In this document: positions 1,453 through 15,390 of the stretch, in pieces | Layout: each line of letters starts with the position of its first letter | Numbering within the stretch: position 1 is the stretch's first letter | Assembly: GCA_002343075.1 (NCBI GenBank) | Contig: DDRH01000007.1 | Span: 52,260-67,649 of the forward strand | Direction: 5' to 3' | DNA length: 15,390 nt | From: Phycisphaerales bacterium UBA2421 | GTDB taxonomy: Bacteria > Planctomycetota > Phycisphaerae > Tepidisphaerales > Tepidisphaeraceae | Translations under genes and position numbers: made by a program | The notes under the pieces: model-generated | The model's input: the letters and a program-made list of their open reading frames with translations, nothing else | Told to the model about the DNA's origin: nothing | Databases searched by the model: none

Positions 1453-3555
1453 CTACCCATTCGCAGGCACATAGAACTCATCTGCGTAGTCGGCAACCAT
1501 GCGCGCCGTGCTGAACTGGTTACACACAGTTCGCATGGATTCCTTCATCATCGCGAGCCACGCCTTGGGCAGACCGGCTTTATCGCGCGCATAAAACCGC
1601 GGGATGACTTCGCGTTCCAGCAGGTCGTACAGGCTGCCGGCATCGTATGCATCCTGCTTCTTCTGATCGGCAAACTCTTTGCCGCCGATGGCCCAGCCGT
1701 TCTTGCCGTTGTAGGCTTCTGGCCACCAGCCGTCGAGGATGCTTAAGTTGACCCCGCCGTGGAGAGGCGGCTTCATGCCACTGGTGCCGCTGGCTTCCTG
1801 CGGGCGAAGGGGGTTGTTGAGCCAGACATCGACACCGCTGGTGAGCATACGGCCGACGTGCATGTCGTAGTCTTCTAGAATGACAACCTTGCCGATGAAC
1901 TGTTGCGCGTACGCGTGTCGGTAAATCTCCTGCGCAAACTGCTGCCCACCCATGTCCGCAGGATGAGCTTTGCCGGCAAAGACGATTTGCATCGGTCGTT
2001 TCTCATCGCCCAGGATTCTCGCTAAACGCTTGGCATTGCTAAAGATAAGAGGAGCGCGCTTGTATGTGGCAAACCGCCTGGCGAAGCCGATGGTGAGGGT
2101 GTCGGGGTTAAAGGTCTCATGGGCTGCAGCGAGCATGGAAACATCGCCGTGCGCGCGGGCGATCTGGTCGGCCAGCCGCGTGCGGATGAACTGAATCAGC
2201 CGCGATCGCAGCATCCGGCGGGCGGCCCAAAGCTCGGCGTCGGGAATCTTGCCTGCGTTCTTCCACCAGTCGTCCTTCGGGCCTGCGCCGTTCCATTTTG
2301 GCTTGAGATACTTGTCGTAGACGGCGCGCATCTCCGGTGCCAGCCAGGTTTCTGAGTGAATGCCGTTGGTAATCGAGCCAATGGGAACTTTTGCGTGTGC
2401 GTCGGCGGTAAGGCCGTACATTTTGGTCCACATGCGCCGGCTTGTGTCGCCGTGCAGCGCCGCCACGCCGTTGCAGTGGCGGCTGAGCTTGAGCGCCAGC
2501 ACGGTCATGCAATAGGGTTCGTTCTTGTCCGATTCATCTTCGCGCCCGCTGGCGAGCAATTCCTGGTTGTTGATGCCGAGCGCCTTGGCGTAACTGCCGA
2601 TGTATTTCAGTGTCAACGTCGCATCAAACCGATCGTTCCCCGCTGGCACGGGTGTGTGGGTGGTGAATACGCTGCTGGCGCGCACCTGGCGGATGGCGGA
2701 TTTCATGTCGCTGCCCCGTGCGACAAACCGCCGGACGCGCTCGAGTGCCGCAAACGCCGCGTGGCCTTCATTCATATGAAAAACGGTGGCCTTGAGCCCA
2801 AGTGCATCGAGCGCCATCGTCCCGCCGACACCCAGCAGCATTTCCTGTCGAATGCGATACTCACGGTCCCCGCCGTAGAGGTGGCGGGTGAGCTTGCGGT
2901 CTTCGGCGTGGTTGCCTTCGACATCCGTGTCCATCGAGTAGATCGCGGCACGCCCAATCGTCTGCTTCCAGATCCTGGCCTTCACATCGCGCGAGCCAAT
3001 CCGCAGCTTGATCGATTTCCCCGTATCGGTGATCGGCAGGTCGGCAAAATCCAGCTCGGGGTAGATGACGCGCGTCGAACCATCCGTGGCGAATTCCTGC
3101 GTGTAGTAACCCGCGCGATACAGCAATCCGATGCCCACGAGCGGCAAGCCGAGATCGCTCGCGCTCTTGATGTGGTCGCCGGCAAGCACACCAAGACCGC
3201 CGGAATATTGTTGCAACGATTCATGAATCGCATATTCGGCACAAAAATACGCGACGAGCATCCCCCTGGTCTTCTTGCCATATGTACGATCAAACCAGGT
3301 CTTGCTGCTGAGGTAAGCCGCCAGTGATTTCTCGACGCGATCGAGATGTGCCGCGAACGCCGGATCGCGGCCGATCCAGCCGCGCCGCTCGGGCGAGAGC
3401 AGCCGCAGCGTGCGCAGCGGGCCGCGGCGCGTCGCCACCCACAACGGCGGGTCCATCGACTCAAACAACGCCTGCGCGTCGGGGTTCCAGCTCCACCACA
3501 GATTCCGCGCGAGAGATGCTACGCGATCAAAAACGCTTGCTTTGTTTTTCGCCAT
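1453..3555 (-). CDS. glgP: Alpha-glucan (maltodextrin/glycogen) phosphorylase
   Basis: A cytoplasmic GT35 phosphorylase that splits alpha-1,4-glucans with phosphate to give glucose-1-phosphate. The 700-residue protein has the N-terminal segment of the short 'alpha-glucan family phosphorylase' group (LARNLWWSWNPDAQALF, about residues 15-31), then FCAEYAIHESLQQYSGGLG (104-122), FHMNEGHAAF (259-268) and TTHTPVPAGNDRF (298-310). The pyridoxal-phosphate signature EASGTSGMK is at 587-595, with Lys595 the expected PLP Schiff-base residue. The frame extends upstream to a TTG at 3579, but I prefer the ATG at 3555: AGGGT at 3561-3565 sits five bases before it, and the protein then begins MAKNKASVFD, as relatives do. 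It is shorter than the E. coli MalP/GlgP type. It lies 93 bp downstream of malQ on the same strand, so the pair is probably co-transcribed and acts in sequence on maltodextrins. Confidence 0.92.
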   Translation of the reverse strand: MAKNKASVFDRVASLARNLWWSWNPDAQALFESMDPPLWVATRRGPLRTLRLLSPERRGWIGRDPAFAAHLDRVEKSLAAYLSSKTWFDRTYGKKTRGMLVAYFCAEYAIHESLQQYSGGLGVLAGDHIKSASDLGLPLVGIGLLYRAGYYTQEFATDGSTRVIYPELDFADLPITDTGKSIKLRIGSRDVKARIWKQTIGRAAIYSMDTDVEGNHAEDRKLTRHLYGGDREYRIRQEMLLGVGGTMALDALGLKATVFHMNEGHAAFAALERVRRFVARGSDMKSAIRQVRASSVFTTHTPVPAGNDRFDATLTLKYIGSYAKALGINNQELLASGREDESDKNEPYCMTVLALKLSRHCNGVAALHGDTSRRMWTKMYGLTADAHAKVPIGSITNGIHSETWLAPEMRAVYDKYLKPKWNGAGPKDDWWKNAGKIPDAELWAARRMLRSRLIQFIRTRLADQIARAHGDVSMLAAAHETFNPDTLTIGFARRFATYKRAPLIFSNAKRLARILGDEKRPMQIVFAGKAHPADMGGQQFAQEIYRHAYAQQFIGKVVILEDYDMHVGRMLTSGVDVWLNNPLRPQEASGTSGMKPPLHGGVNLSILDGWWPEAYNGKNGWAIGGKEFADQKKQDAYDAGSLYDLLEREVIPRFYARDKAGLPKAWLAMMKESMRTVCNQFSTARMVADYADEFYVPANG

Positions 3556-3648
3556 TACCAACCCTGATTCTGAACCCAAAGCTATGAAGAGCGAGAAAGC
3601 TCGTACAGTCTTTCACTGCTTTGTGTTCTTAATGCCCTTCGTGATTCA
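3556..3648. other. malQ-glgP intergenic spacer with a possible decayed dispersed repeat
   Basis: The 93 bp between malQ and glgP carry the glgP Shine-Dalgarno (AGGGT, minus strand, 3561-3565) and, at about 3618-3648, a TTTGTGTTCTT / CCCTTCGTGATTCAT phrase. This resembles the CACGAAG-type intergenic repeat that I recall as common in planctomycete and verrucomicrobial genomes. I see no strong terminator or promoter, in line with malQ and glgP forming one transcript. The repeat assignment is from memory of similar sequences and needs a genome-wide count. Confidence 0.3.
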
Positions 3649-5187
3649 TCACTGGACCCGTTCAAAGTCCTCACACATCGTCCGCAACATTGCGGCGTGT
3701 TCTTTCTTCAGCGCGCCGGGCTTCATGCGCCATTCCCAGTTATCGACTACCGTCCCGGGGACGTTCATTCTCGCCTCTCCGCCCAACCCAAGAATGTCCT
3801 GCACGGGAAAGATCGCGGTGTGCGCGCGGCTGGCCATGACGGTGCGAATCAGGTCCCAGTGCATGTTCGTGCCGTCGCCATTGGTATTGGCATATCGCTG
3901 CATGAGGGCAAACTCGGCCCGCGCCTTGCGGCTGCGCCGCCCCGCCGTCTCGACCTTATCGAAATAGCCTCGAATCGTGTCGTTGTCGTGCGTGCCGGTA
4001 TAAAAAACACTCGCCGCCGACTGATTGTGGGGCATATGATCGCAACCCCCGCCAAAGCCGAACTGCAACACTTTCATGCTCGGGAAGCCAAACTCGTCGC
4101 GAAGCCTGCTCGCGCCCACCGTCACGGCACCGAGATCTTCGGCAATAATCGGGGGCTGGCCCAGTCGCTTGCGGACGGCGGTGAACAACTCACGGCCTGG
4201 GGTCTTCACCCATTTGCCCACGCGAGCGGTTAGCTGGTCGGCTGGAATCTGCCAGGTGCGGTAAAAGCCCAGAAAGTGATCGATTCGCACGCCATCAAAG
4301 AGGCGCAGCGTTTCGGCGAACCGCTTTACCCACCAGGCAAAGCCTTCCTGCTGATGCCGGCGCCAGTCATAGTGAGGATGCCCCCACCGCTGCCCGTCTG
4401 CGTTAAAAAAATCGGGCGGGCAGCCACTGACCACTCTGGGTGCGCCCTCGCGATCGAGTACGAACAAGTCGCGCCGCGCCCAGACATCGGCTGAGTCGTA
4501 AGCAATGAAAATCGGAATGTCTCCGATCAGCCCGACGCCTTTTTTATTGGCGTACGCCTTTAACGCCGACCACTGCTTATCAAAAATGTACTGCTGAAAC
4601 TGATGAAATCGCACCTCGTCTGCCAACACCCGCCGGGCATCGGCCAGCGCCGAAGGTTCGTGAAGCCGAAGATCGCGGGCCCAGAGGTTCCACGGCTTCC
4701 CGCCGTGCGCTTCCTGCAGGGCACTGAAAAGGGCAAAATCATCCAGCCAACCAGAATGCTTGCGGATGAACCGGTTCAGTGCTGCGTTTGCACCCGATTT
4801 GTACTTAAACCGCTCGTAAGCAACCCGCAGCCGTTCGGCACGATAGGGCACAACCGCCTGGAAGATCAGTTTTGCATCGCGGAAAGCAGTCGAAGGGAGC
4901 AACTCGCTTTTTCGGAGAAGCCCCTCTTTGACCAACTGATCGAGACTGATTAACCACGGACTGCCCGCGAAAGTGCTGTTGCAGGAGTAAGGAGAAAAGC
5001 CATCGCCCGGGGGGTTGACCGGCAGCATCTGCCACCACCGCTGACCCGCGGCGCTGAGGAAATCGACGAAATCGTAAGCCGCCCGCCCCAAATCGCCGCT
5101 GCCGTGGCGGCCGGGGAGCGAGGTAATGTGCATCAGCACGCCGCACGACCGGCGGTTGAAGGTAAATGGCTGCTTGACGGCTTTCAT
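3649..5187 (-). CDS. malQ: 4-alpha-glucanotransferase (amylomaltase, GH77)
   Basis: A 512-residue cytoplasmic GH77 enzyme that transfers maltosyl and longer units between alpha-1,4-glucans, turning short maltodextrins into longer chains that phosphorylase can use, plus glucose. The length matches the compact bacterial amylomaltase type. Visible signatures are HITSLPGRHGSGDLG (20-34), LPVNPPGDGFSPYSCNS (55-71), IGDIPIFIAYDSADVW (221-236), the nucleophile Asp303 in DGVRIDHFLGFYRTWQIP, the acid/base Glu350 in PIIAEDLG, and the third catalytic Asp401 in GTHDNDT. All three catalytic carboxylates are present. The ATG at 5187 gives the normal N-terminus; only a weak GGGA lies upstream. A sigma70-like promoter candidate is at 5225-5252. 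glgP follows 93 bp downstream on the same strand, the classic MalQ-phosphorylase pairing. Confidence 0.95.
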   Translation of the reverse strand: MKAVKQPFTFNRRSCGVLMHITSLPGRHGSGDLGRAAYDFVDFLSAAGQRWWQMLPVNPPGDGFSPYSCNSTFAGSPWLISLDQLVKEGLLRKSELLPSTAFRDAKLIFQAVVPYRAERLRVAYERFKYKSGANAALNRFIRKHSGWLDDFALFSALQEAHGGKPWNLWARDLRLHEPSALADARRVLADEVRFHQFQQYIFDKQWSALKAYANKKGVGLIGDIPIFIAYDSADVWARRDLFVLDREGAPRVVSGCPPDFFNADGQRWGHPHYDWRRHQQEGFAWWVKRFAETLRLFDGVRIDHFLGFYRTWQIPADQLTARVGKWVKTPGRELFTAVRKRLGQPPIIAEDLGAVTVGASRLRDEFGFPSMKVLQFGFGGGCDHMPHNQSAASVFYTGTHDNDTIRGYFDKVETAGRRSRKARAEFALMQRYANTNGDGTNMHWDLIRTVMASRAHTAIFPVQDILGLGGEARMNVPGTVVDNWEWRMKPGALKKEHAAMLRTMCEDFERVQ

Positions 5188-5393: not shown

Positions 5394-5437
5394 AAGTGCA
5401 TCAGGGATGACCTCTCGAAGTCTTGCAAAATGCACTT
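5394..5437 (-). terminator. Inverted repeat at the pseudopilin stop codon, possible terminator
   Basis: AAGTGCAT (5394-5401) and ATGCACTT (5430-5437) are a perfect 8-bp inverted repeat. The 28-base interior holds a second, imperfect stem (GACCTC...GAAGTC, about 5410-5423). The outer arm overlaps the TAA stop (5436-5438) of the pseudopilin gene, so the RNA could fold right at the end of that reading frame. There is no U-tract, so a processing or stability hairpin is as likely as intrinsic termination. Confidence 0.35.
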
Positions 5438-6425
5438 ACCACTTGTACGGGCTGACTCGAACTTTCTTCAGGTCATCCTGCAGCATCGTTTCGGCATGAC
5501 CATCGGCGAAGGCCACATTCAGCTTGCCGTTGCGCCAACTGTTTCCCACCCGCTTGCCGCCGTGGCGGTCGAAGGGGAGACGCTTGGTGCGGTTGACATA
5601 CTCCATGGTCCCCTGCACGTCATCGGTGATTGCCGCCGCGCCCGGAATTCGCGGTGGGCTCAGATCGAAATCGTCGGTTGAAAATGCCAACTCATCAGAC
5701 ATGCGCATGAGCTTGTTGGATGTTGGATTACCAACAACCTGCGCAACATCCTGCATCGGTCTAACACCCATATCAGCAAACAGCGCGGTTTCGGCAGCCC
5801 GATTGACCTTGTTCAGCCGCGCGCCCAGCGGAATCGTCGCGGGCCGGCCGGGGCCTTGGTACACGCCGAGAACGGTATTGTAGTTGTAGTAGCCCTGCCC
5901 GTTGCCGGGATCGATGCCGCACGCAATGTCGGCGTTGATGCCATAGCTCGCCGGAACATAGTCGGCGGTGTTTGAAAGGCCGATGTTTACCGTGATTCGA
6001 TAACCCGGCTTGGTGTCCTCCTGGAAGGAATCACTCGGGCACTTGTAAACGTCACGCTTTCCGGGGGAATCCTTAAAAATCTTATCAATGCTGGTCTTGT
6101 CGCCAAGATAGGGGAGTAACGCCGAAGCCCAGTCGAGCGGCACCAGATTGTTCCCACCGTCGCGGTACCAGATGAACTTGGACTTTGATGGATCGAGGAT
6201 GGTCGCGCGCTCTTTCTCGCCCACCAACTGAATAAAGCCGTTGCGTTCGGTCGCCTGCACCCTTGCCGCGGTGGCGAGCTGGCGCAGGTTGGAGAGGCAC
6301 TTTACGGTGTTGGCAGCACCCTTTGCGCGCCCGAGTGCGGGCAGCAGGATGCTGATCAACAGCGCGATAATGCCAATGACGACAAGGAGTTCGACGAGTG
6401 TGAATGCCGCCCGACGGTGGGTCAT
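5436..6425 (-). CDS. Pseudopilin-like protein (prepilin-type N-terminus, DUF1559/H-X9-DG-like)
   Basis: A 329-residue protein with a type IV pilin/type II secretion leader: MTHRRAA, then FTLVELLVVIGIIALLISILLPAL as the membrane helix, with the cleavage site before Phe and the conserved Glu at +5. Ala rather than Gly precedes the cleavage site, which is common in planctomycetes. The helix is followed by GRAKGAANTVKCLSNLRQLATAAR, the usual next segment of this large family. The C-terminus has RHGG...NVAFADGHAETM, related to the H-X9-DG ending of processing-associated pseudopilins. The frame extends to 6458, but the ATG at 6425 is chosen: AGGTG at 6431-6435 precedes it by five bases and it gives the standard short leader. 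Specific function is unknown; by family it is a minor pilin or pseudopilin of a secretion or surface system. Its position between malQ and secreted amylases suggests a role tied to starch use, which is inference. Confidence 0.88.
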   Translation of the reverse strand: MTHRRAAFTLVELLVVIGIIALLISILLPALGRAKGAANTVKCLSNLRQLATAARVQATERNGFIQLVGEKERATILDPSKSKFIWYRDGGNNLVPLDWASALLPYLGDKTSIDKIFKDSPGKRDVYKCPSDSFQEDTKPGYRITVNIGLSNTADYVPASYGINADIACGIDPGNGQGYYNYNTVLGVYQGPGRPATIPLGARLNKVNRAAETALFADMGVRPMQDVAQVVGNPTSNKLMRMSDELAFSTDDFDLSPPRIPGAAAITDDVQGTMEYVNRTKRLPFDRHGGKRVGNSWRNGKLNVAFADGHAETMLQDDLKKVRVSPYKW

Positions 6426-6468
6426 GGGTGCACCTAAAATGGTTTGAACCAGTGACATTTCATCGGGA

Positions 6469-6630: not shown

Positions 6631-9600
6631 TCATTCTGGGGTTGCGGGCCGGTTTCGACACCGGCGCCCGCGCCGAAGCAATCCAACCGCCGCCGCGCCG
6701 AGTGCCGCGCCGAAGGAAGGCTCGGGCACAGCGCTCCGCGGAAGATCGCCGGTCGATACGAAGCCGAAGTTGCTTGCCAGCACGGTGAAATCATTGAGAT
6801 TCACCACGCCATCGCCCGTAAAATCACCACTGGCCCAACCGCCGGCGCTGCCAAACCCGGCGGCGAGAGCGGTAAAGTCGTCTAGATTGATGCTGCGATC
6901 GAGATTGGCGTCGCCGTACTCGGTCAGGAAGATGTTTCGGAGAAGTAAATCGACATCGGCAACCGTGACCATGTTATCGACGTTCAAATCGGCGCGCCAG
7001 ATATTGCTGGTCGAGCCGAGTTGGCTGAAGAGCGAATCGATGTCGGCGGCATCGCCGGGGCTGCTGAGCGGTGAATTGTTGATATTCCCGCGACGCAACT
7101 CCGCGGCGCGGGCCTCGTTCAAGACCGCAGCGGGTGCCCCTGCGGCGACGAGTACGGCACGGATTGCAAGCAAGTCACGCGTATCGAGCAGGCCGTTGCC
7201 GTCGATATCGGCTGGCGCGCCCGGCAGGCCGAAGGTGTGGTTGGTCACGCCGCCGGAGTTGGGATAAGTAAGAAACTCGATGCCCTGCGGCCCATTGATG
7301 TCCGCGGTGGTGTATGAGTTGCTTCCGTCCAGATCACCCAGGCCCAGGCCACGACCCGGAATGAGCAGAAAAATCCCCGGGGTTCGCTTCACACCGACAT
7401 TGCCAGTCTCTTCAAACGCCACCGAGGTCACGACCTGATTGCCGCTGCGCAGTTGCGTTGAGCCGAATGTGAGCGCGAACAAATCGCGATCAATCCTGGC
7501 GGTCAGCCCGACATTGACGTTTGCCTGCGCGATTGCAGCCGCCTCGGTCTGGTTGCCGGGGAAATTGAGCAATATGTGAACGCGGTTGGCGGTGCCGTCG
7601 GTGGATTGCTGGCGAAACTGGTACTGCGAAGCCGATGTCTGCACGATTGAATTGTGATCGGCAATTGGCGCAAGGCGATCGACATAGATTGCCTGCCGGA
7701 AATCTTCAAACACGGCCGGCCCGCCGTCGCTGCGCTGGCGGAAGGCGCGCACCGTGATGTAGTTGTAGCCCTCGGGCAGCAGCGTGGTATCGATCGACTG
7801 GCTATAGGTGCCCGCCCCACTCAGCGCAGGATTGGAGTTATAGCCCGGCTGCCGCTGGGTGACGAACTGCTCGAAACCGTAGACCACGCCGGTGAGCGGG
7901 TCGTCGGCCAGATCGACCCCGCCGTTGCCATTCAGGTTCAGCCCGGCGTTAAACTTAAACAGCGCGTTATCCCCGTCGGCGGGAGTATCGCGCGAACCAT
8001 CGGGCAGCGTGACAGGCAAAGTGTTGAGCGTAATCGAGAATGCGTTTGCGGTGATGACTGGGAGCGCAGTCAGTCGATTGGTGGCGTTATTGCCCGCAGT
8101 GGGGGTAGCCGGGTTGAGCGTCGCCGCGATGTTGCTGATCGAGAGCGTGCCGGTCGGCTTGGCCAGGCCGTAAATGGCATAGCCGTTGTCGGTGAGCGTG
8201 CCCTGTGCCGTGGCATTTCCGGCGACAGAGAAAGTGCCCCTGCCCAGCGCGTCGATCGTGACAACGTCGGGCAGCGCGCCGGTGGTATCGATCGCGGGGT
8301 TGGTCGCGTTGCCGGTGAGATCAATGAGCTTGGTGCCCGGCGCAAATCCGGTTTGAATGACGCGCGTCTGCACGGGTGAATCGCCCCGGTTGTTGAGCAC
8401 GACCAGCGCGCTGCGGTCGCGCTCGTAGGCCATCACTTCCTTTTCCAGGAGCCGGGTGGTGTAGTTGCCCCGGCCGTGGGTGTTGCGGATCTCAACCAGG
8501 TCGGTAATGCGGCTGCCGTGGAAGCCGCCGAGCGCGCTCAGTTCGCCGTCCTTGGGAAAAGTGCGCCCGTTGCCGAACTCTTTGGCATTAAAGTAGACCA
8601 GCGCATTGCCCGGCCGCATGAGCATGTATGCATGAGCAACCCGCTTGAGCGCCGTCACACCGTCTTCGTCGTGGCTTTCGGCAAATGCCACGCCCTGTGT
8701 GCCATTTTCAAGGCCGTCGTCCTGCACATCTTGCGATCGACCGACGACGTTGCGCCAATCATTCTGCAGACCGTTGGCGGTGAGATTGTCGCGCATGGCG
8801 AAAAACAATGGAAAATCGAGCGCGTCACGGTTGCCGCCGATGGTGGTGCCGCTCACGGTATTGGCATTTTTCTTGATGTACTGCTGAACCGCGCCGCGGT
8901 TGCCGTCGAACATTTCGCTGAAGCTGAACACGTGCTGTTGCTGACCGTTGAGCAGCGGCGTCTTGATCGACTTCCAGACCTGCCGATCCAGCTCATTAAG
9001 CACGGCGGGAGGGAAATGCTTCACTGCATCGAGGCGAAAGCCGTCAAAGCCTACTTCCTGCACCATCCAGCGCGCGTGGCGCATGAGATAATTTTGTCCA
9101 TTTTCCATCACCGGATCGCCGGCGGCGGGGTTGGCGGTGTTGAAATCGTAGACCGTGACATTGCTGCCGGTGGTCGGGTCAAAGTAGGTCGTGCCGCCCA
9201 GCGCCTGATCGGGGTAAAAGCGGCGATTGGATTCATTGGCGATATTGGCCGTGCGGCCATTGAACGTACTCGTCCCCGCGGGCAGGTTGCCGGCAAAACC
9301 CGGGACGGGGTTGCGGATGTACTGGTAATTCTTCTCCTGCGCAATATCGATCAAGCCGGAGATTCGCTCCAGAAAAGGATCGGAGCCGGTGTAATTCTGC
9401 TGATGAAAATCGCCGTCGATGTCGTCGCCGCGGGTGATGGCGAAGCCGGGATATCCACCTGAAGCGGTAAAGCCGGGATTGAATCTTGTGGCGAAGCCGT
9501 TGTGGTTGAGGATGAGATCGCTGTAAATGCGCCCGCCCCACCGATGGGTCTCGGCGACCATTGCCTTGATCGACCGCTCGGTGCCGTAGAGCGTGCTGTT

Positions 9601-9885
9601 ACCGGTGGCCCCGAGATCGAACCGGTCGTAGACATCGTAGCCAACACTCGTGTTTCCGCTTTCGGCGCGGCTCGGGGGGGGTGTCCACAACGAGCCATAA
9701 CCAGACATAAACACATCCGGGCTGCGGCGCTCGATGGTCTGCCAGGTGCCTTCAAACCACTGCAACATCGCAGGTTGTGAGGCATTTTGCGCGTGAGCAA
9801 ATGAAGCCGTCGAAACAGCAGCAAGGAGGATGTTGTGAATTTTGCGGGTCATAAGTTGTACGGCAAAACAAGTTGAGACATTCAT
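6631..9885 (-). CDS. Secreted GH13 alpha-amylase-like protein A with dockerin-like repeats and PEP-CTERM tail
   Basis: A 1084-residue exported glycoside hydrolase, expected to cleave alpha-1,4-glucans. A Sec signal peptide ends near FAHAQ (residue 33). The ATG at 9885 is used here; the ATG at residue 12 (9852) gives a more typical signal (MTRKIHNILLAAVSTASFAHAQ) but has no ribosome site, while GGGGG lies three bases before 9885. The GH13 barrel spans about 37-500: region I SDLILNH (Asp123, Asn127, His128), region II GFRLDAVKH (nucleophile Asp286, Arg284), region III FSEMF (acid/base Glu324), region IV ESHD (Asp406; Ser where Asn is usual). Beta-rich modules follow (about 500-845). Calcium-type dockerin-like repeats lie at about 851-863, 893-908, 966-982, 991-1012 and 1020-1041, then VPEP (1053), a short hydrophobic stretch and RRGRR. 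It is the last of three tandem paralogues, 36 bp after the previous stop. Exact product specificity is unknown. Confidence 0.9.
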   Translation of the reverse strand: MNVSTCFAVQLMTRKIHNILLAAVSTASFAHAQNASQPAMLQWFEGTWQTIERRSPDVFMSGYGSLWTPPPSRAESGNTSVGYDVYDRFDLGATGNSTLYGTERSIKAMVAETHRWGGRIYSDLILNHNGFATRFNPGFTASGGYPGFAITRGDDIDGDFHQQNYTGSDPFLERISGLIDIAQEKNYQYIRNPVPGFAGNLPAGTSTFNGRTANIANESNRRFYPDQALGGTTYFDPTTGSNVTVYDFNTANPAAGDPVMENGQNYLMRHARWMVQEVGFDGFRLDAVKHFPPAVLNELDRQVWKSIKTPLLNGQQQHVFSFSEMFDGNRGAVQQYIKKNANTVSGTTIGGNRDALDFPLFFAMRDNLTANGLQNDWRNVVGRSQDVQDDGLENGTQGVAFAESHDEDGVTALKRVAHAYMLMRPGNALVYFNAKEFGNGRTFPKDGELSALGGFHGSRITDLVEIRNTHGRGNYTTRLLEKEVMAYERDRSALVVLNNRGDSPVQTRVIQTGFAPGTKLIDLTGNATNPAIDTTGALPDVVTIDALGRGTFSVAGNATAQGTLTDNGYAIYGLAKPTGTLSISNIAATLNPATPTAGNNATNRLTALPVITANAFSITLNTLPVTLPDGSRDTPADGDNALFKFNAGLNLNGNGGVDLADDPLTGVVYGFEQFVTQRQPGYNSNPALSGAGTYSQSIDTTLLPEGYNYITVRAFRQRSDGGPAVFEDFRQAIYVDRLAPIADHNSIVQTSASQYQFRQQSTDGTANRVHILLNFPGNQTEAAAIAQANVNVGLTARIDRDLFALTFGSTQLRSGNQVVTSVAFEETGNVGVKRTPGIFLLIPGRGLGLGDLDGSNSYTTADINGPQGIEFLTYPNSGGVTNHTFGLPGAPADIDGNGLLDTRDLLAIRAVLVAAGAPAAVLNEARAAELRRGNINNSPLSSPGDAADIDSLFSQLGSTSNIWRADLNVDNMVTVADVDLLLRNIFLTEYGDANLDRSINLDDFTALAAGFGSAGGWASGDFTGDGVVNLNDFTVLASNFGFVSTGDLPRSAVPEPSFGAALGAAAVGLLRRGRRCRNRPATPE
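6763..6915 (-). repeat. Dockerin-like tandem repeat in GH13 protein A
   Basis: Two roughly 30-residue repeats (GDANLDRSINLDDFTALAAGFG and GDFTGDGVVNLNDFTVLASNFG, residues 991-1041) with Asp/Asn-rich EF-hand-like loops of dockerin type I style. The DNA is a tandem repeat of about 90 bp, and closely similar copies occur at 10033-10185 and 13563-13715 in the other two paralogues. Such modules may bind calcium and a cohesin-like partner, or act only as spacer before the PEP-CTERM tail. Confidence 0.7.
8576..8623. repeat. Near-identical direct repeat shared by GH13 genes A and C
   Basis: These 48 bases match 15343-15390, the very end of the window, with only two differences. They encode MRPGNALVYFNAKEF in both proteins. 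Such identity over 6.8 kb marks recent duplication or conversion between the two genes and is a possible site for recombination or misassembly. Confidence 0.85.
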
Positions 9886-9921
9886 TTACCCCCGCCGGCT
9901 ACGTCGGGACGGGAAGAGCAT

Positions 9922-12900
9922 TCAGTTTCTGCGACGGCGAAGCACCAGCCCACCGATCATCAATACGCCGCCGATGCTTGCGGGTTCCGGCACAAACGCG
10001 CCACGCAGCGCCGGTGCCGACGGCCCACTGAGGCCGAAGTTGGCCGCGAGCAGGGTGAAGTCATCGAGTGCGACGAAGCCTTGTCCGTCAAAGTTACCCT
10101 GTGCCCAGCCGCCGGGCAGGCCGAAATTGGCGGCAAGGGCGGTAAAATCGTCAAGGTTGACCGTGGAATCCAGATTGGCATCGCCAAAACGGGTTCCGAG
10201 GATGACACTGAGCATCACATTCAGGTCGCTGGAATCGATTGGCCCGCCGTCGCTGTTGAGGTCGTATTTCCACTGGTAGGGGCCGAAATTGGCGTAGAGG
10301 TCGTCAATATCGCCCGCGTTGGCGGGTGAGACGTAGTTGCCGGTAAAATCGCCCCGCCGGCGCACCGCGGCGAGCGCTTCGGTAAACGCCTGGCTCGCCA
10401 TGACGGAGGCATATCGCCCGGGCAGTGCGAAGAGATCGACGTTGTTCACGCGCCCGTCGCCATTCATATCGCCGGCGGCGTTAAACTGCTGATCCTGCGT
10501 GTAAAGCACGTTCTCAAAAGTGGTTACATCGCCGGGCGCGTATCCGCCGTCGAAGTTGGTGTCACCAAGACCCAGGCCGCGCGTGGTGCCGATGAACTGA
10601 CCAACGAACCGCTGCACTGAGAAATTGCCCGTCGGCTCAAAAGTCACGCTGGTGACGACGTGGTTGCCGCTGCCCACGCCATCAAACCGACGGCCAAACA
10701 AATCGGCATCGATCCGATCAGTCTTGTTGCCGTTGTTGACAAGCGCGAGGATCTGCGCGTCGCTGAGCGCCGCGCCCAGATCAAGAAACACATGCACACT
10801 GTCGGCGGTGCCGTCGGTGCTCTTGATTCGGATATCGCGCGACTGCGTGCTGGTCTGGTAGGGAAACTGCGCAGTCGAGTCCACCGCGCTCACCGGATCG
10901 AGGCGATCGACATAGATGGTCTTTCGGAAGTCTTGGAACACTTCGCTCTCGCTCGCGCCTTGCTTGCGCCACGCGCGCACGGTGACAAAGTGATAGCCCT
11001 CGCTCAGGCCAGCAGCATTGATGACCTGCTCATACGTCCCCGCGCCGCCGTTGCCGAAGCCAGGTGTGTTGGTGGTAAGGAATGACTCAAAGCCATACGT
11101 CGTTGCATTGCTCGCGGCGCTCGATGGGTTGTCCAGCACGCCGTTACCGTTGACATCCAGCCCTTCATTCAGCCTGATGAGCGCACGATCGCCATCGGCA
11201 AATGTGTCGCGAAAGCCGTCTGCGAGGGTGACCGCATTGGTGTTTAGCCGCACTTTGAAAGTGTCGCTGGTGATGACATCGATCGCGTTGATCAGCGCCG
11301 TGCCGTTGTTGCTCGGGTTCAGCGCTTCGGCTCCGAACGTCCCCACCGCGGCCCCGGCGGTGGTGGTGACGGCGAGCGCGCCGCGTGGCCGTGGCAAACC
11401 GTAGACAACGTACCCTTTGTTTCCATTGGCAAGGTTGTTCCAGGGGATATCGATCGTCACCTGTCCCGAACCATTGACGGCAACGACACGATCAACCAGC
11501 CCGCTTGGGTCCTGCCAGTTTCCGGTGACTTCTTCCAGGCGAGTGCCCGGCGCGAACGATGTCTGCATCGTGCGCGTTGCGACACCGGGGTTGTAGCCGA
11601 TGTTGAGCCCGACCACCGCGCTGCCCTGCCGCTCGAACGCATACACCGCCGACTTTAGCGAGGGGTTGGCGGTGTTATCGATGAATCGCTCGATAAAATC
11701 CCCCCGGCCATAGCTGTTGCGCACATCGACCAGCGTGGTGATGATGCTGCCATATTGTCCGCCGAGCGCATCGCCCCGGCCTTGCTTGAGGAAGAAGTTG
11801 TTGTTGCCGCTGCGGTTGAATTCATCGCTGCGGTAATAGACATACGCGTTGCCGGGTCGCATGAGAATCCAGGCGTGGGCGACGTTGTCCAACGCGATCG
11901 TGTTCCCCGCACCCTGCCCCGGCGGGGTCACACCTTCGTCGTGGTTGTAGACAAAACCGATCCCATTATCGCCATTGTTGGCAATGTTGGGATTGAGCGT
12001 GTTATAGACTGCTGCGTTGATCCCCGCCGAGCGAATCTGATACCAGTCATTTTGCAGGCCGTTGCCCGTCATGTTGCGGCCCATCGCCGCCCACATGCTG
12101 AAGTCGAGCACTTCGCGATTCGGGTTTACGGTGTCGCCCGGCTGCTGGCTTTTGCGGATAAAGCTCTTGAGCAGGTTGGAGTCGTAGCTGAAGACTTCCT
12201 GAAAGTTGAAGGCATTTCGCGTGGTGCCGTCGAGATTTTTGCGATTCAGCGTGCCAAATGCGGTGGCACGATCAATCTCCAGCGGGACATTGAGCGAATT
12301 GGGGTTGTAACCGCTATTGAAAACGCCAAGCGGGACATGCCGGGCGGCATCGATGCGCAGGCCATCGACACCGACGACCTGCGTCATCCATTGTGCGTAC
12401 CGCTGCATATAGCCGAGCGTGGTTTCGGCCACCGGATCGCCGGCGCTGGGATTGGCGGTGTTGAAGTCATAAACCGTGTAACTCACTCCGCGGTCGACGA
12501 CGGTGCGCGACGGCCCGTTTAAGTCTGGGTAAAGCCGACGGTTGTCCTCGGTGGGCACATTGGCCTGCCGCAGCTTGTTATCGACCCCGACGATGCCGTT
12601 GGACAGGATTGTGGTCGTTGGCACCGACCAGTTGGCGGGCGATTGCCGAACATTCTGCCCGTTGCCGGGCACCGGACTTCGCACCGCTGTGCGATTGCTG
12701 GTGAGATCGATGGTGACAAGGTTCTCGCCGAGCCGAAACCAATACTCAAACACGTCGCCAAATGGCCTCTGGCCCGCATTGCCGCCGTATAGGTCGGCGT
12801 AAGTGTCGCGGTGGAAGGGTGATGAGACGCTGTTGTTGGGATCGCTTAACTCAAATCCGGGATAATCGCTGCGATCTTGCAGGTAGGGCACGCCCTGGCT

Positions 12901-13326
12901 CAGCAATGACTGCGGATATTGATATCCGTTGAGATTCAGATCGAGCGAGCCGACGTGATGATGCACATAGTCGACGTAAACATTGCCGCCGGACTTTTGC
13001 ACCGACTTGACGAATGATTTGTAGGAGCCTTCCGTGCCATACAATGTCGGGTCGCGCGGGCGGCCGAGGTCGAATCGGTCGTATGGGTCGTAACCAATTC
13101 CGCCGCCTTGCGGAATGTACACCGCGCGCCCTGGAGGCGGGGTCCAGACGGCACCATAGCCCGCAGCGTGGAAGTCGGCGGTGCGGCGCTCGATGTTCTG
13201 CCAGCTCGACTCAAACCACTGCAGCGTGACCGGCGGAGAGACCTGCTGCGCATGCACCGCCCCCGCTGTCGCCAAAACAGCAACCGCGGCCAAACGCAGC
13301 ACGTCGAGTCTCTTAACAAATCGCAT
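9922..13326 (-). CDS. Secreted GH13 alpha-amylase-like protein B with dockerin-like repeats and PEP-CTERM tail
   Basis: An exported GH13 enzyme of 1134 residues (numbering below counts the preceding TTG at 13329 as 1). The ATG at 13326 is preferred because GAGGAG at 13335-13340 lies eight bases before it. The signal peptide runs to VHAQ (28). Catalytic regions: I VDYVHHH (Asp120; His124 replaces the usual Asn), II GLRIDAARH (nucleophile Asp327), III FNFQEVF (Glu378), IV YNHDEG (Asp464). All three catalytic acids are present. Compared with paralogue A it has extra insertions between regions I and II and before region III. The post-catalytic part includes ADGDRALIRLNEGLDVNGNG (711-730) and VTVRAWR...FRKTIYVDRL (782-810). 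Dockerin-like repeats fall at about 921-935, 953-969, 1006-1039, 1049-1070 and 1078-1099, then VPEPASIGGVLMIGGLVLRRRRN. It lies 89 bp downstream of gene C and 36 bp upstream of gene A, so one operon is likely. It is the most divergent of the three. Confidence 0.9.
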   Translation of the reverse strand: MRFVKRLDVLRLAAVAVLATAGAVHAQQVSPPVTLQWFESSWQNIERRTADFHAAGYGAVWTPPPGRAVYIPQGGGIGYDPYDRFDLGRPRDPTLYGTEGSYKSFVKSVQKSGGNVYVDYVHHHVGSLDLNLNGYQYPQSLLSQGVPYLQDRSDYPGFELSDPNNSVSSPFHRDTYADLYGGNAGQRPFGDVFEYWFRLGENLVTIDLTSNRTAVRSPVPGNGQNVRQSPANWSVPTTTILSNGIVGVDNKLRQANVPTEDNRRLYPDLNGPSRTVVDRGVSYTVYDFNTANPSAGDPVAETTLGYMQRYAQWMTQVVGVDGLRIDAARHVPLGVFNSGYNPNSLNVPLEIDRATAFGTLNRKNLDGTTRNAFNFQEVFSYDSNLLKSFIRKSQQPGDTVNPNREVLDFSMWAAMGRNMTGNGLQNDWYQIRSAGINAAVYNTLNPNIANNGDNGIGFVYNHDEGVTPPGQGAGNTIALDNVAHAWILMRPGNAYVYYRSDEFNRSGNNNFFLKQGRGDALGGQYGSIITTLVDVRNSYGRGDFIERFIDNTANPSLKSAVYAFERQGSAVVGLNIGYNPGVATRTMQTSFAPGTRLEEVTGNWQDPSGLVDRVVAVNGSGQVTIDIPWNNLANGNKGYVVYGLPRPRGALAVTTTAGAAVGTFGAEALNPSNNGTALINAIDVITSDTFKVRLNTNAVTLADGFRDTFADGDRALIRLNEGLDVNGNGVLDNPSSAASNATTYGFESFLTTNTPGFGNGGAGTYEQVINAAGLSEGYHFVTVRAWRKQGASESEVFQDFRKTIYVDRLDPVSAVDSTAQFPYQTSTQSRDIRIKSTDGTADSVHVFLDLGAALSDAQILALVNNGNKTDRIDADLFGRRFDGVGSGNHVVTSVTFEPTGNFSVQRFVGQFIGTTRGLGLGDTNFDGGYAPGDVTTFENVLYTQDQQFNAAGDMNGDGRVNNVDLFALPGRYASVMASQAFTEALAAVRRRGDFTGNYVSPANAGDIDDLYANFGPYQWKYDLNSDGGPIDSSDLNVMLSVILGTRFGDANLDSTVNLDDFTALAANFGLPGGWAQGNFDGQGFVALDDFTLLAANFGLSGPSAPALRGAFVPEPASIGGVLMIGGLVLRRRRN
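10033..10185 (-). repeat. Dockerin-like tandem repeat in GH13 protein B
   Basis: The pair GDANLDSTVNLDDFTALAANFG and GNFDGQGFVALDDFTLLAANFG (residues 1049-1099) corresponds to the repeats at 6763-6915 and 13563-13715. The second copy has lost some acidic loop positions (GQG, VAL), so calcium binding there may be weaker. Confidence 0.65.
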
Positions 13327-13334
13327 CAAACTCG

Positions 13335-13340
13335 CTCCTC
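13335..13340 (-). promoter_or_regulatory. Ribosome binding site deciding the start of GH13 gene B
   Basis: GAGGAG on the minus strand, eight bases before the ATG at 13326. This is the clearest Shine-Dalgarno in the window and favours ATG 13326 over the adjacent TTG at 13329. The rest of the 89-bp spacer to gene C shows no convincing promoter or terminator. Confidence 0.7.
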
Positions 13341-13418
13341 ACTCGCCATCCCCAGAATCACTCCGGCTAACAAGCTCCAACGCATGAACAAAGTCGCCAA
13401 ACGAATGCGCCAGCCCGC

Positions 13419-15390
13419 TTAGTGCAGGCGACGGCCCCTCCGCCGGACTGACAGCAGACCTGCCACCGCAGCCATGGCCGATAGCGACGCCGGCTCGGGA
13501 ACGGGCGCCCCGCGCGCCACAAATGCGCCCGGGGGCAATGGCATGTCTCCCGCGCCGGTGAATCCAAAATTGGCCGCCAGCACCGTAAAATCGTCGAGGT
13601 TGACGAGTGCATCGCCGTTGAAATCGCCGTTTGCCCACCCACCCGCACCGCCGAAGCTGGCGGCGAGGGCGGTAAAATCATCGAGGTTGATGGCGCGATC
13701 GAGCGTGGCATCGCCGTACTCGGTCAGCAATATCGTGCGCACGAGCACATCCATATCGCTGTTGGTCACGGCTTGATCGACATTCAGATCAAACTGCCAG
13801 ATGTCGCCGGTGGCACCGCGCTGCGAGTAAAGCCGATCGATGTCGGCGGCATTGGTGCCGTCGATAAAGTTCATGTCTCCCCGCCGAAGAACCATCGCGC
13901 GCGTTTCCACCTGCACCGCCGCGGGGGCGTTCTGGCTTTGATACAGGCCCGGCAGCGCAAACAGGTCGAGATTGTCGACCCGACCATCGGCATTCAAATC
14001 GCCGGCGGGGTTAAACTGCGCGTTGCGGCTGTACAAGACCTGCTCAAACGCGTTGGCCACATTCGCCACGTCGGCGGTGGTGAAAGTGCCGTTGCCGTCG
14101 ATATCACCCAGCCCAAGCCCGCGGCCGTTGGCGATGAACACGCCGGGCACGCGCTGAATGTTGAGATTCCCGGAAATCTCATAGGTTACGATCGTGGCGA
14201 TGTTGTTCCCGCTCTGCACACCAAAGAAGCCATACTTGAAAAGGTCGCGATCGTAGTCGCCGGCGCGGTTGTCCTGGCCGACGAACGACAAAATCGATGA
14301 TTCGGTTACCGTCTCGGGCAGATTGAGAAACACATGGACGCGATCCGCGGTCTTGTCGTCGCTACGGATGATGAGGTCGCGGTTTTCGGTGTTGGCGGGG
14401 TTGAACGGCTCAAAACTCGCGACACTGCTCTCGGGCTTCAATCGATCGATGTAGACTGTCTTGCGGAAATCGGTGTAAACCGAAGTCCCGCCGTCGCTGC
14501 GCTGGCGGTAGGCGCGGACGGTGATGAAGTTCTGCCCCTCGGGCAGAGTCGTCGCATCGATGGCCTGAATGTATTGCCCGTTGCCGCTGGCGTTGTCATA
14601 GCCGGGGCTGTTGAGCGTTGTAAACGCCTCAAAGCCGTAACCGGTCGAACTGGGATTGACGTTATCAACCACACCATTGCCGTTGAGATCAAGCCCGCCG
14701 TTGATGCGAATGAGCGCGCGATCGCCGTCTGCGGGCCGGTCGCGATGAATTCCCAGCAGCGTAACAGCATTGGTGTTGAGCGTGACGTTAAAATCGTCTG
14801 CGGTGATGACATCGAGGCTGCTGAGCCGGGCGGTGCCATTCGTCGCTGCGGTGGGGGTTTCGCCCGCGATGGTCTGCGAAACGTTGGAAAGCGAGAGCGA
14901 CCCTTGCGGCGTGGCGAGGCCGTAAATGAAGAATCCGCGATTGTGCGTTGCGCCGCTCGCGCCCGGCGCTTTGTTACGCGGAACCCGGAGGTTCACCGTG
15001 CTGTCGCCATTGACAATCAGCAGTTCGGGAAAGTCATTGAAGGGATCGACGACCGCATCAGAGGCGTTGCCGGTCAGTTCGATCAACGGCGTGCCTGCGG
15101 CGAAGGCTGTCTGGATGGTGCGGCTGTCAAATCCGCCATCACCACGATTGCTTAACACCACCAGCGCCGACTTTTCTCGCTCGTAGATGAGCATTTCTTT
15201 CTGATCATTCGTAGGCGTGCGGTCCTGGTAGTTGCCCCGGCCATGGGTGTTGCGGATGTTGACAAGCTTGGTGATAGCGCTGCCGTAAAGCCCGCCGAGC
15301 GCATCGCCACGGCCGTCGGCGGGGAAATCGCGACCGTTCCCAAACTCTTTGGCATTAAAATACACCAGCGCATTGCCCGGCCGCATGAGC
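13419..15390 (-). CDS. Secreted GH13 alpha-amylase-like protein C, C-terminal part (5' end outside window)
   Basis: The frame is open through the window end (Leu codon at 15387-15389 before MRPGNALVYFNAKEFGNG), so the ATG at 15386 is internal and the signal peptide and GH13 regions I-IV lie outside. What remains, about 655 residues, begins in the last part of the barrel and matches protein A there almost word for word (ALGGLYGSAITKLVNIRNTHGRGNY). Then come the shared modules: ADGDRALIRINGGLDLNGNGVVDN (219-242 from that Met), ITVRAYRQRSDGG (288-300) and HVFLNLPE (351-358). Dockerin-like repeats sit at about 428-440, 463-478, 514-547, 558-578 and 587-608, and the tail is VPEPASLSAMAAVAGLLSVRRRGRR. 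It is the first of the three tandem genes seen; hydrolase activity is inferred from the paralogues because no catalytic residue is visible. Confidence 0.88.
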   Translation of the reverse strand, partial: LMRPGNALVYFNAKEFGNGRDFPADGRGDALGGLYGSAITKLVNIRNTHGRGNYQDRTPTNDQKEMLIYEREKSALVVLSNRGDGGFDSRTIQTAFAAGTPLIELTGNASDAVVDPFNDFPELLIVNGDSTVNLRVPRNKAPGASGATHNRGFFIYGLATPQGSLSLSNVSQTIAGETPTAATNGTARLSSLDVITADDFNVTLNTNAVTLLGIHRDRPADGDRALIRINGGLDLNGNGVVDNVNPSSTGYGFEAFTTLNSPGYDNASGNGQYIQAIDATTLPEGQNFITVRAYRQRSDGGTSVYTDFRKTVYIDRLKPESSVASFEPFNPANTENRDLIIRSDDKTADRVHVFLNLPETVTESSILSFVGQDNRAGDYDRDLFKYGFFGVQSGNNIATIVTYEISGNLNIQRVPGVFIANGRGLGLGDIDGNGTFTTADVANVANAFEQVLYSRNAQFNPAGDLNADGRVDNLDLFALPGLYQSQNAPAAVQVETRAMVLRRGDMNFIDGTNAADIDRLYSQRGATGDIWQFDLNVDQAVTNSDMDVLVRTILLTEYGDATLDRAINLDDFTALAASFGGAGGWANGDFNGDALVNLDDFTVLAANFGFTGAGDMPLPPGAFVARGAPVPEPASLSAMAAVAGLLSVRRRGRRLH
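13563..13715 (-). repeat. Dockerin-like tandem repeat in GH13 protein C
   Basis: GDATLDRAINLDDFTALAASFG and GDFNGDALVNLDDFTVLAANFG, followed five residues later by the PEP-CTERM region. The DNA is strongly similar to 6763-6915, with long shared stretches around GCGGTAAA and CATCGCCGTACTCGGTCAG, again linking genes A and C. Confidence 0.7.
15343..15390. repeat. Near-identical direct repeat, second copy (gene C)
   Basis: Partner of 8576-8623 with two mismatches in 48 bases. The window stops inside the repeat, so its real length cannot be judged. Confidence 0.85.

Follow-up and report, generated by a model that had tools for sequence, protein, structure and literature searches.

A genome-specific dockerin-like tag on about 100 proteins of a planctomycete, including three adjacent GH13 alpha-amylases

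We have analysed a stretch of 15,390 nucleotides (the window; contig DDRH01000007.1, positions 52,260 to 67,649) from Phycisphaerales bacterium UBA2421. Three adjacent minus-strand genes in this window, AmyC, AmyB and AmyA, encode GH13 alpha-amylases whose C-termini consist of dockerin-like calcium loops followed by a PEP-CTERM tail. As an array these genes are ordinary and belong to an enzyme family that is already known. What stands out is the last loop pair, a tag of about 53 residues which is found on about 100 proteins of the same genome, is specific to that genome and occurs without a detectable cohesin. The best supported reading, to which we give a probability of about 0.6, is that the final pair serves as a genome-private docking tag for a dedicated partner. 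This would entail export, exosortase cleavage, calcium binding and a partner whose existence and place, like the other steps, we infer.

In the aligned tags the final pair shows two repeats of a loop and a helix, the calcium positions being 1, 3, 5, 9 and 12 and position 9 frequently S, D or G. A profile comparison matches 2y3n_B at 1.1e-8, and Pfam Dockerin_1 remains below threshold on the final pair. When AmyB was compared with its own genome, 107 matches were obtained, of which 5 fall on the amylases and 102 on other places, and almost all involve the last ~110 residues of AmyB; the tag profile likewise identifies 107 places at E<=1e-6. All 102 non-amylase matches were retrieved and the 94 with a readable C-terminus were classified. 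Class I proteins end in PEP-CTERM. Class II proteins have no PEP-CTERM and carry an N-terminal motif which was defined by a pattern broadened after inspection and on which the NCBIfam LEPR-XLL model mostly stays below its cut-off, so that 'LEPR-XLL-like' is only a reading. PEP-CTERM without the motif occurs in 48 proteins, the motif without PEP-CTERM in 35, both in 1 and neither in 2, while 8 lack their N-terminus (Fisher p 1.5e-20 for the split). The single protein with both is a chance match within a signal-like N-terminus; of the two with neither, one has the variant SLETRRHLT and the C-terminus of the other lies in N. Samples of 20 tag proteins from relatives gave 10 with PEP-CTERM only, 6 with the motif only and 4 lacking the N-terminus (G020); 15 with PEP-CTERM only, 2 with the motif only, 2 with neither (one a variant motif by eye) and 1 lacking its end (G010); and 18 with PEP-CTERM only, 1 with PEP-CTERM and a chance motif and 1 scored as lacking a PEP-CTERM tail that is visible by eye (G046).

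Among the class I proteins are pectate lyase-like, GH57, GH16 and chondroitinase members, and class II includes subtilases, M36 and reprolysin-like peptidases and one glycoamylase. In class I the tag lies just ahead of the PEP-CTERM tail and in class II 28-107 residues from the end. Altogether, 53 tag proteins carry PEP-CTERM, out of 103 PEP-CTERM matches in the genome (89 over cut-off). The original prediction had envisaged a surface starch-degrading array of amylases. A dockerin-cohesin array dedicated to starch is not supported, since no cohesin was found and many of the proteins that share the tag are not starch enzymes.

Several features of the tag proteins can be recorded here. The linker residue of the tag is W in 98% of class I and F in 77% of class II. 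Four proteins (L060, L095, L105 and L108) have a conserved insert of ~60 residues (..YPQIYWEAR..FESMNLGPIPDMP..) separating the dockerin pair from the PEP-CTERM tail. Class II genes are clustered, many of them adjacent, at 10-70 kb of contig C52 and 11-24 kb of contig C25 of G000, the UBA2421 genome (L084-L090, L094). Class II tails past the dockerin frequently have F[SAG] near the end, and the class II proteins of G020 stop 6-7 residues beyond the listed tag.

Each of the four sampled genomes has its own tag code: NLDDFTxLAANFG in UBA2421, NGDDYFxIDSNFP in G020, NFxDLLALARNYN in G010 and SLxDLNALGANFG in G046. The tags compared were those of UBA2421 class I and class II and 20 from each relative, the latter drawn from the best 60 of 73, 32 of 73 and 37 of 77 matches to the UBA2421 tag profile in the three genomes, so that the bias of selection works against seeing different codes. 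Within genomes, tag identity is 0.66 (UBA2421 class I), 0.63 (class II), 0.65 (G046), 0.62 (G010) and 0.85 (G020); between genomes it is 0.32-0.49, and between the two UBA2421 classes 0.58. Cellulosomal dockerin specificity has been assigned to positions 10, 11, 17, 18 and 22, with calcium at 1, 3, 5, 9 and 12, as described in PMC5748583. At positions 10, 11, 17 and 18, those used here, agreement is 0.78 and 0.69 for UBA2421 classes I and II, 0.65 for G046, 0.76 for G010 and 0.99 for G020, compared with 0.19 among 105 homologous amylases (the listed set, unthinned and with paralogues included). Compared with the other tags of their genome, the amylase tags of G020 (0.84) and UBA2421 (0.64-0.66) follow the local code, and that of one G010 amylase (G010_c, 0.55) does so in part. 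The G020 amylase tag agrees with the tags of other amylases at only 0.26-0.43.

The two loops of the tag also change together. From 120 listed homologues, 114 had the domain, 105 were usable and 60 remained at <70% mutual identity. In these 60, loop 1 and loop 2 of the same protein are 0.564 identical, compared with 0.386 on shuffling (maximum of 2000 shuffles 0.416) and with 0.404 when loop 1 is set against the second loop of the nearest relative. The excess is +0.50 at position 10, +0.26 at 11, +0.50 at 17 and +0.30 at 18, and also +0.44 at 13, +0.56 at 14 and +0.34 at 16; it is slight at 15 and 19 and absent at 2, 4 and 12. In the 46 proteins whose upstream pair could be read, the value for the final pair is 0.562 versus 0.382 shuffled (reached by 0 of 2000 shuffles), and the upstream pair shows no coupling (0.251 versus 0.247; reached by 608 of 2000). 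A symmetric, dual-mode binding face has been described for dockerins (PMC5301203), and coupling of this kind is the pattern that such a face would be expected to leave. It speaks for selection and not for binding.

The partner could be a conventional scaffoldin cohesin that escaped detection through its divergence or the incompleteness of the assembly, and the locus a planctomycete amylosome; this would be a special case of docking, and we think it somewhat unlikely. The assembly is 91% complete, which leaves it some room, but the Pfam cohesin model PF00963 has no match in the genome at E<=1. With a profile built from 12 cohesins of relatives, no match at E<=0.1 was obtained in UBA2421 itself (G000) or in G020, G046, G002, G021 and G006; G046 has 73 tags and is 99% complete. 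The same profile gives an E of 0.012 in G019; its positives in G004, G010 and G011 come from contributors to the profile and so provide no independent control. The original prediction was right to leave the dockerin partner open. Cohesins do exist among the relatives: PF00963 exceeds its cut-off in 10 of 61 genomes, including 4 of the 14 with at least 10 tags (E<=1e-6) and 6 of the remaining 47. G004 encodes a protein of 2188 amino acids (L222) that has two cohesins, begins in a LEPR-like manner and carries a final pair whose code is its own, and giant cohesin-bearing frames occur in G009 (L210) and G010 (L211). The other 10 tag-rich genomes, however, have no cohesin above cut-off.

Alternatively, the pair may need no partner. 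It could be a calcium-stabilised stalk or spacer ahead of the anchor that shuffling and gene conversion have made uniform; the pair does adjoin the anchor, and four relatives' amylases manage without it. Observed and expected fourfold-site identities between tags are 0.448/0.378 (UBA2421 class I), 0.452/0.398 (class II), 0.617/0.559 (G046), 0.396/0.370 (G010) and 0.472/0.460 (G020), and between loops 1 and 2 of the same tag 0.434/0.380, 0.465/0.397, 0.704/0.579, 0.429/0.375 and 0.494/0.451, respectively. The slight excess in every set is what a stalk of this origin would predict, but most values are close to expectation, and tag identity is therefore not mainly due to recent copying; most of the protein identity has been retained while synonymous sites were nearly randomised. 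Moreover, the loops are coupled at specificity positions while positions 2 and 4 keep different residues in the two loops, a difference that conversion of whole loops would not be expected to leave, the neighbouring pair is uncoupled and the tag also terminates proteins without PEP-CTERM. Taken together, this makes the stalk improbable. A further explanation, which overlaps with docking, is that the tag is a sorting signal read by the export or outer membrane anchoring machinery rather than by a scaffold. The position of the tag, close to the tail or to the C-terminus, and the occurrence of one and the same tag on very different proteins would suit this. We nevertheless consider it unlikely, since amylases with PEP-CTERM and without the pair occur in G023, G001, G021 and G008, and exosortases are present in 59 of 61 genomes irrespective of tags.

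A number of observations weigh against a genome-private docking tag. Its partner was not found. Positions 13, 14 and 16 couple at least as strongly as the published specificity positions and position 11 less so; the two loops have the same residue at position 11 in no more than 15% of the tags of G046 and 20% of those of G010. One G010 amylase (G010_b) is off the code of its genome (0.37), and the final pair is present on the amylase of G016 and one of those of G008 although the UBA2421 tag profile finds only 5 and 0 tags in these genomes. The UBA2421 tags were gathered by likeness to AmyB and their uniformity is therefore partly built in; this does not apply to G046, G010 and G020, whose tags were found by likeness to the UBA2421 code and yet differ from it. 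Fourfold identity slightly exceeds expectation in 5 of 5 sets, and the closest pairs clearly do so (0.556 over 338 sites in UBA2421 class I; 0.774 over 62 sites in G046), so that some copying of tags does occur and some homogenisation is possible. Finally, the PEP-CTERM match of AmyC is marginal.

The architecture of the array was confirmed as originally predicted, with spacings of 36 and 89 bp and shared ends. AmyC (6631..9885, minus strand, 1084 amino acids) is an alpha-amylase with a GH13 barrel fold. Its catalytic region, as delimited by the structure match, covers residues ~35-577 (8155..9783) and is followed by a beta-sandwich region, at best Ig/FN3-like (model and weak matches; residues ~578-842, 7360..8154), two EF-hand-like loop pairs identified by eye (residues ~850-987, 6925..7338), the tag (residues 991-1042, 6760..6915) and the PEP-CTERM tail (residues 1053-1084, 6634..6729). 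The N-terminus is hydrophobic by eye and a helix in the AmyC model. AmyB (9922..13329, minus strand, 1135 amino acids) is alpha-amylase-like and has its tag at residues 1049-1101 (10027..10185) and its tail at residues 1112-1135 (9925..9996). The window contains the 3' part of AmyA (13419..15390, minus strand; tag 13560..13715, tail 13422..13502); the gene is split by a scaffold gap and its 5' part lies beyond the gap, outside the window, where the protein (P0014, 1091 amino acids) is complete. The hallmark of GH13 is four conserved motifs with catalytic Asp, Glu and Asp. All four are present in AmyA and AmyC (in the latter DLILNHNG, GFRLDAVKH, SFSEMF and AESHDED, all intact) and three in AmyB, in which the first (residues 120-127) is DYVHHHVG and not DxxxNHNG; the activity of AmyB may be different. 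PEP-CTERM scores are 20.5 bits for AmyA, 20.3 for AmyB and 16.5 for AmyC (cut-off 16). The genome search for exosortases that had been proposed identified two genes over cut-off.

The amylase family was found in 13 of the 26 genomes of the bacterial family, that of UBA2421 included. In the database, 1509 of 7995 candidates scored are homologues at E<=1e-20, of which 120 were listed; some of these are named alpha-amylase or dockerin type I domain-containing protein (Tepidisphaeraceae, Phycisphaerae, Pirellulales). A FastTree phylogeny of the 120 places AmyA, AmyB and AmyC in separate clades, each closer to proteins of other organisms. The three genes are thus not a recent tandem expansion. They do lie side by side, but on this tree they are ancient paralogues from a family that is broadly distributed in Planctomycetota, and the array is an ordinary one. 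Most relatives have a single copy; G010 has two in tandem and G008 two unlinked. The final pair is present in 12 of 16 amylases examined (the three described here and those of relatives). The other four (G023, G001, G021 and one of G008) have the PEP-CTERM end without it, in genomes with 1, 5, 0 and 0 tags, respectively.

A pseudopilin-like protein (N_methyl; 5436..6458) lies immediately downstream of AmyC, followed by MalQ, a GH77 4-alpha-glucanotransferase (3649..5187), and an alpha-glucan phosphorylase (1453..3579), all on the minus strand. Upstream, beyond the window (L021), come two small proteins, one with PEP-CTERM above the Pfam cut-off. The plus strand then encodes a LacI regulator and a CBM48-GH13 enzyme, an ABC fusion of binding protein and permease, a further permease and one more PEP-CTERM protein. 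Extension past position 15390, which had been suggested as a means of finding more paralogues, completed AmyA and brought these upstream genes to light. The fusion of the ABC solute-binding protein and permease is a single frame (L021, 10111-12555). In 12 amylase loci from 11 of 12 relatives (G003, with a weak partial match, was omitted, and several stretches stop at contig ends), the pseudopilin adjoins the amylase in 9, and 7 have LacI and the CBM48-GH13 gene close by. The small PEP-CTERM protein was seen in 5 of these loci, while 3 contain the transporter fusion and 1 has MalQ together with phosphorylase. A pilus-like structure might have some part in the handling of starch. The proposed role in starch or maltodextrin use is thus well supported by gene context. 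At the opposite end of the window, imperfect G/C-rich repeats (1-165) within an acetolactate-synthase-like gene, beside a scaffold gap, are probably an assembly end.

These observations suggest how the system might operate. AmyA, AmyB and AmyC would be exported as the alpha-amylases of a LacI-linked starch/maltodextrin locus, an exosortase would cut the PEP-CTERM tail and the enzymes would remain with the outer envelope or matrix. Maltodextrins could then enter via the neighbouring ABC transporter and serve MalQ and the phosphorylase as substrates. The tag would provide a calcium-held, two-fold symmetric surface recognised by a dedicated partner in the same cell, so that ~100 proteins of two export classes could be kept in one assembly or at a single site. 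More tentatively, many Planctomycetota may have a species-private code of this type: a 53-residue calcium module presenting an identical recognition face on ~100 unrelated proteins of both export classes to a co-evolving receptor of a kind other than cohesins.

Many dockerins occur outside cellulosomes, and a review (PMC5244752) describes their function there as not known. The code would give a direct handle on this function: it names the residues, supplies a bait for the partner and predicts that swapping codes between genomes abolishes binding. If correct, it would point to a general means by which these bacteria arrange their outer surface, and it would provide many docking pairs that are orthogonal to one another.

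Our literature search, which left subscription literature mostly outside its range, found no paper joining PEP-CTERM with dockerin and two that contain LEPR-XLL; for planctomycete dockerins it yielded the planctosome hypothesis for freshwater Phycisphaerae (PMC6461901). This resembles the present case in proposing dockerin/cohesin modules unconnected to cellulose, but as described there it concerns peptidases and includes cohesins, whereas the UBA2421 tag is also carried by carbohydrate enzymes. No cohesin-bearing scaffoldin or anchor/adaptor, which would define a cellulosome, amylosome or planctosome, was found in this genome. The amylosome of Ruminococcus bromii, as presented in PMC5814915, similarly has several dockerin-bearing GH13 enzymes acting on starch at the surface; it differs in its five scaffoldins, whose cohesins bind the dockerins, while UBA2421 has a PEP-CTERM anchor, no cohesin that was found and a tag on ~100 proteins. 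The NCBIfam LEPR-XLL domain (NF012209) shares with class II an ESLEPRRLL-type motif near the N-terminus, but passes its cut-off only once in the genome, at no identified tag protein. Type I dockerins of cellulosomes, according to PMC5748583 and PMC5301203, have the same two calcium-loop/helix repeats with D or N at positions 1, 3, 5, 9 and 12, symmetric repeats and species-typical residues at 10, 11, 17 and 18; the present tag differs in that no cohesin was found and in being paired with PEP-CTERM or with a LEPR-XLL-like N-terminus. The PEP-CTERM/exosortase system, as set out in PMC1569441, is matched in its exosortase and in the PEP motif, hydrophobic stretch and basic end of its substrates, and possibly also in their N-terminal signal, with the difference that here about half of the PEP-CTERM matches also carry the tag.

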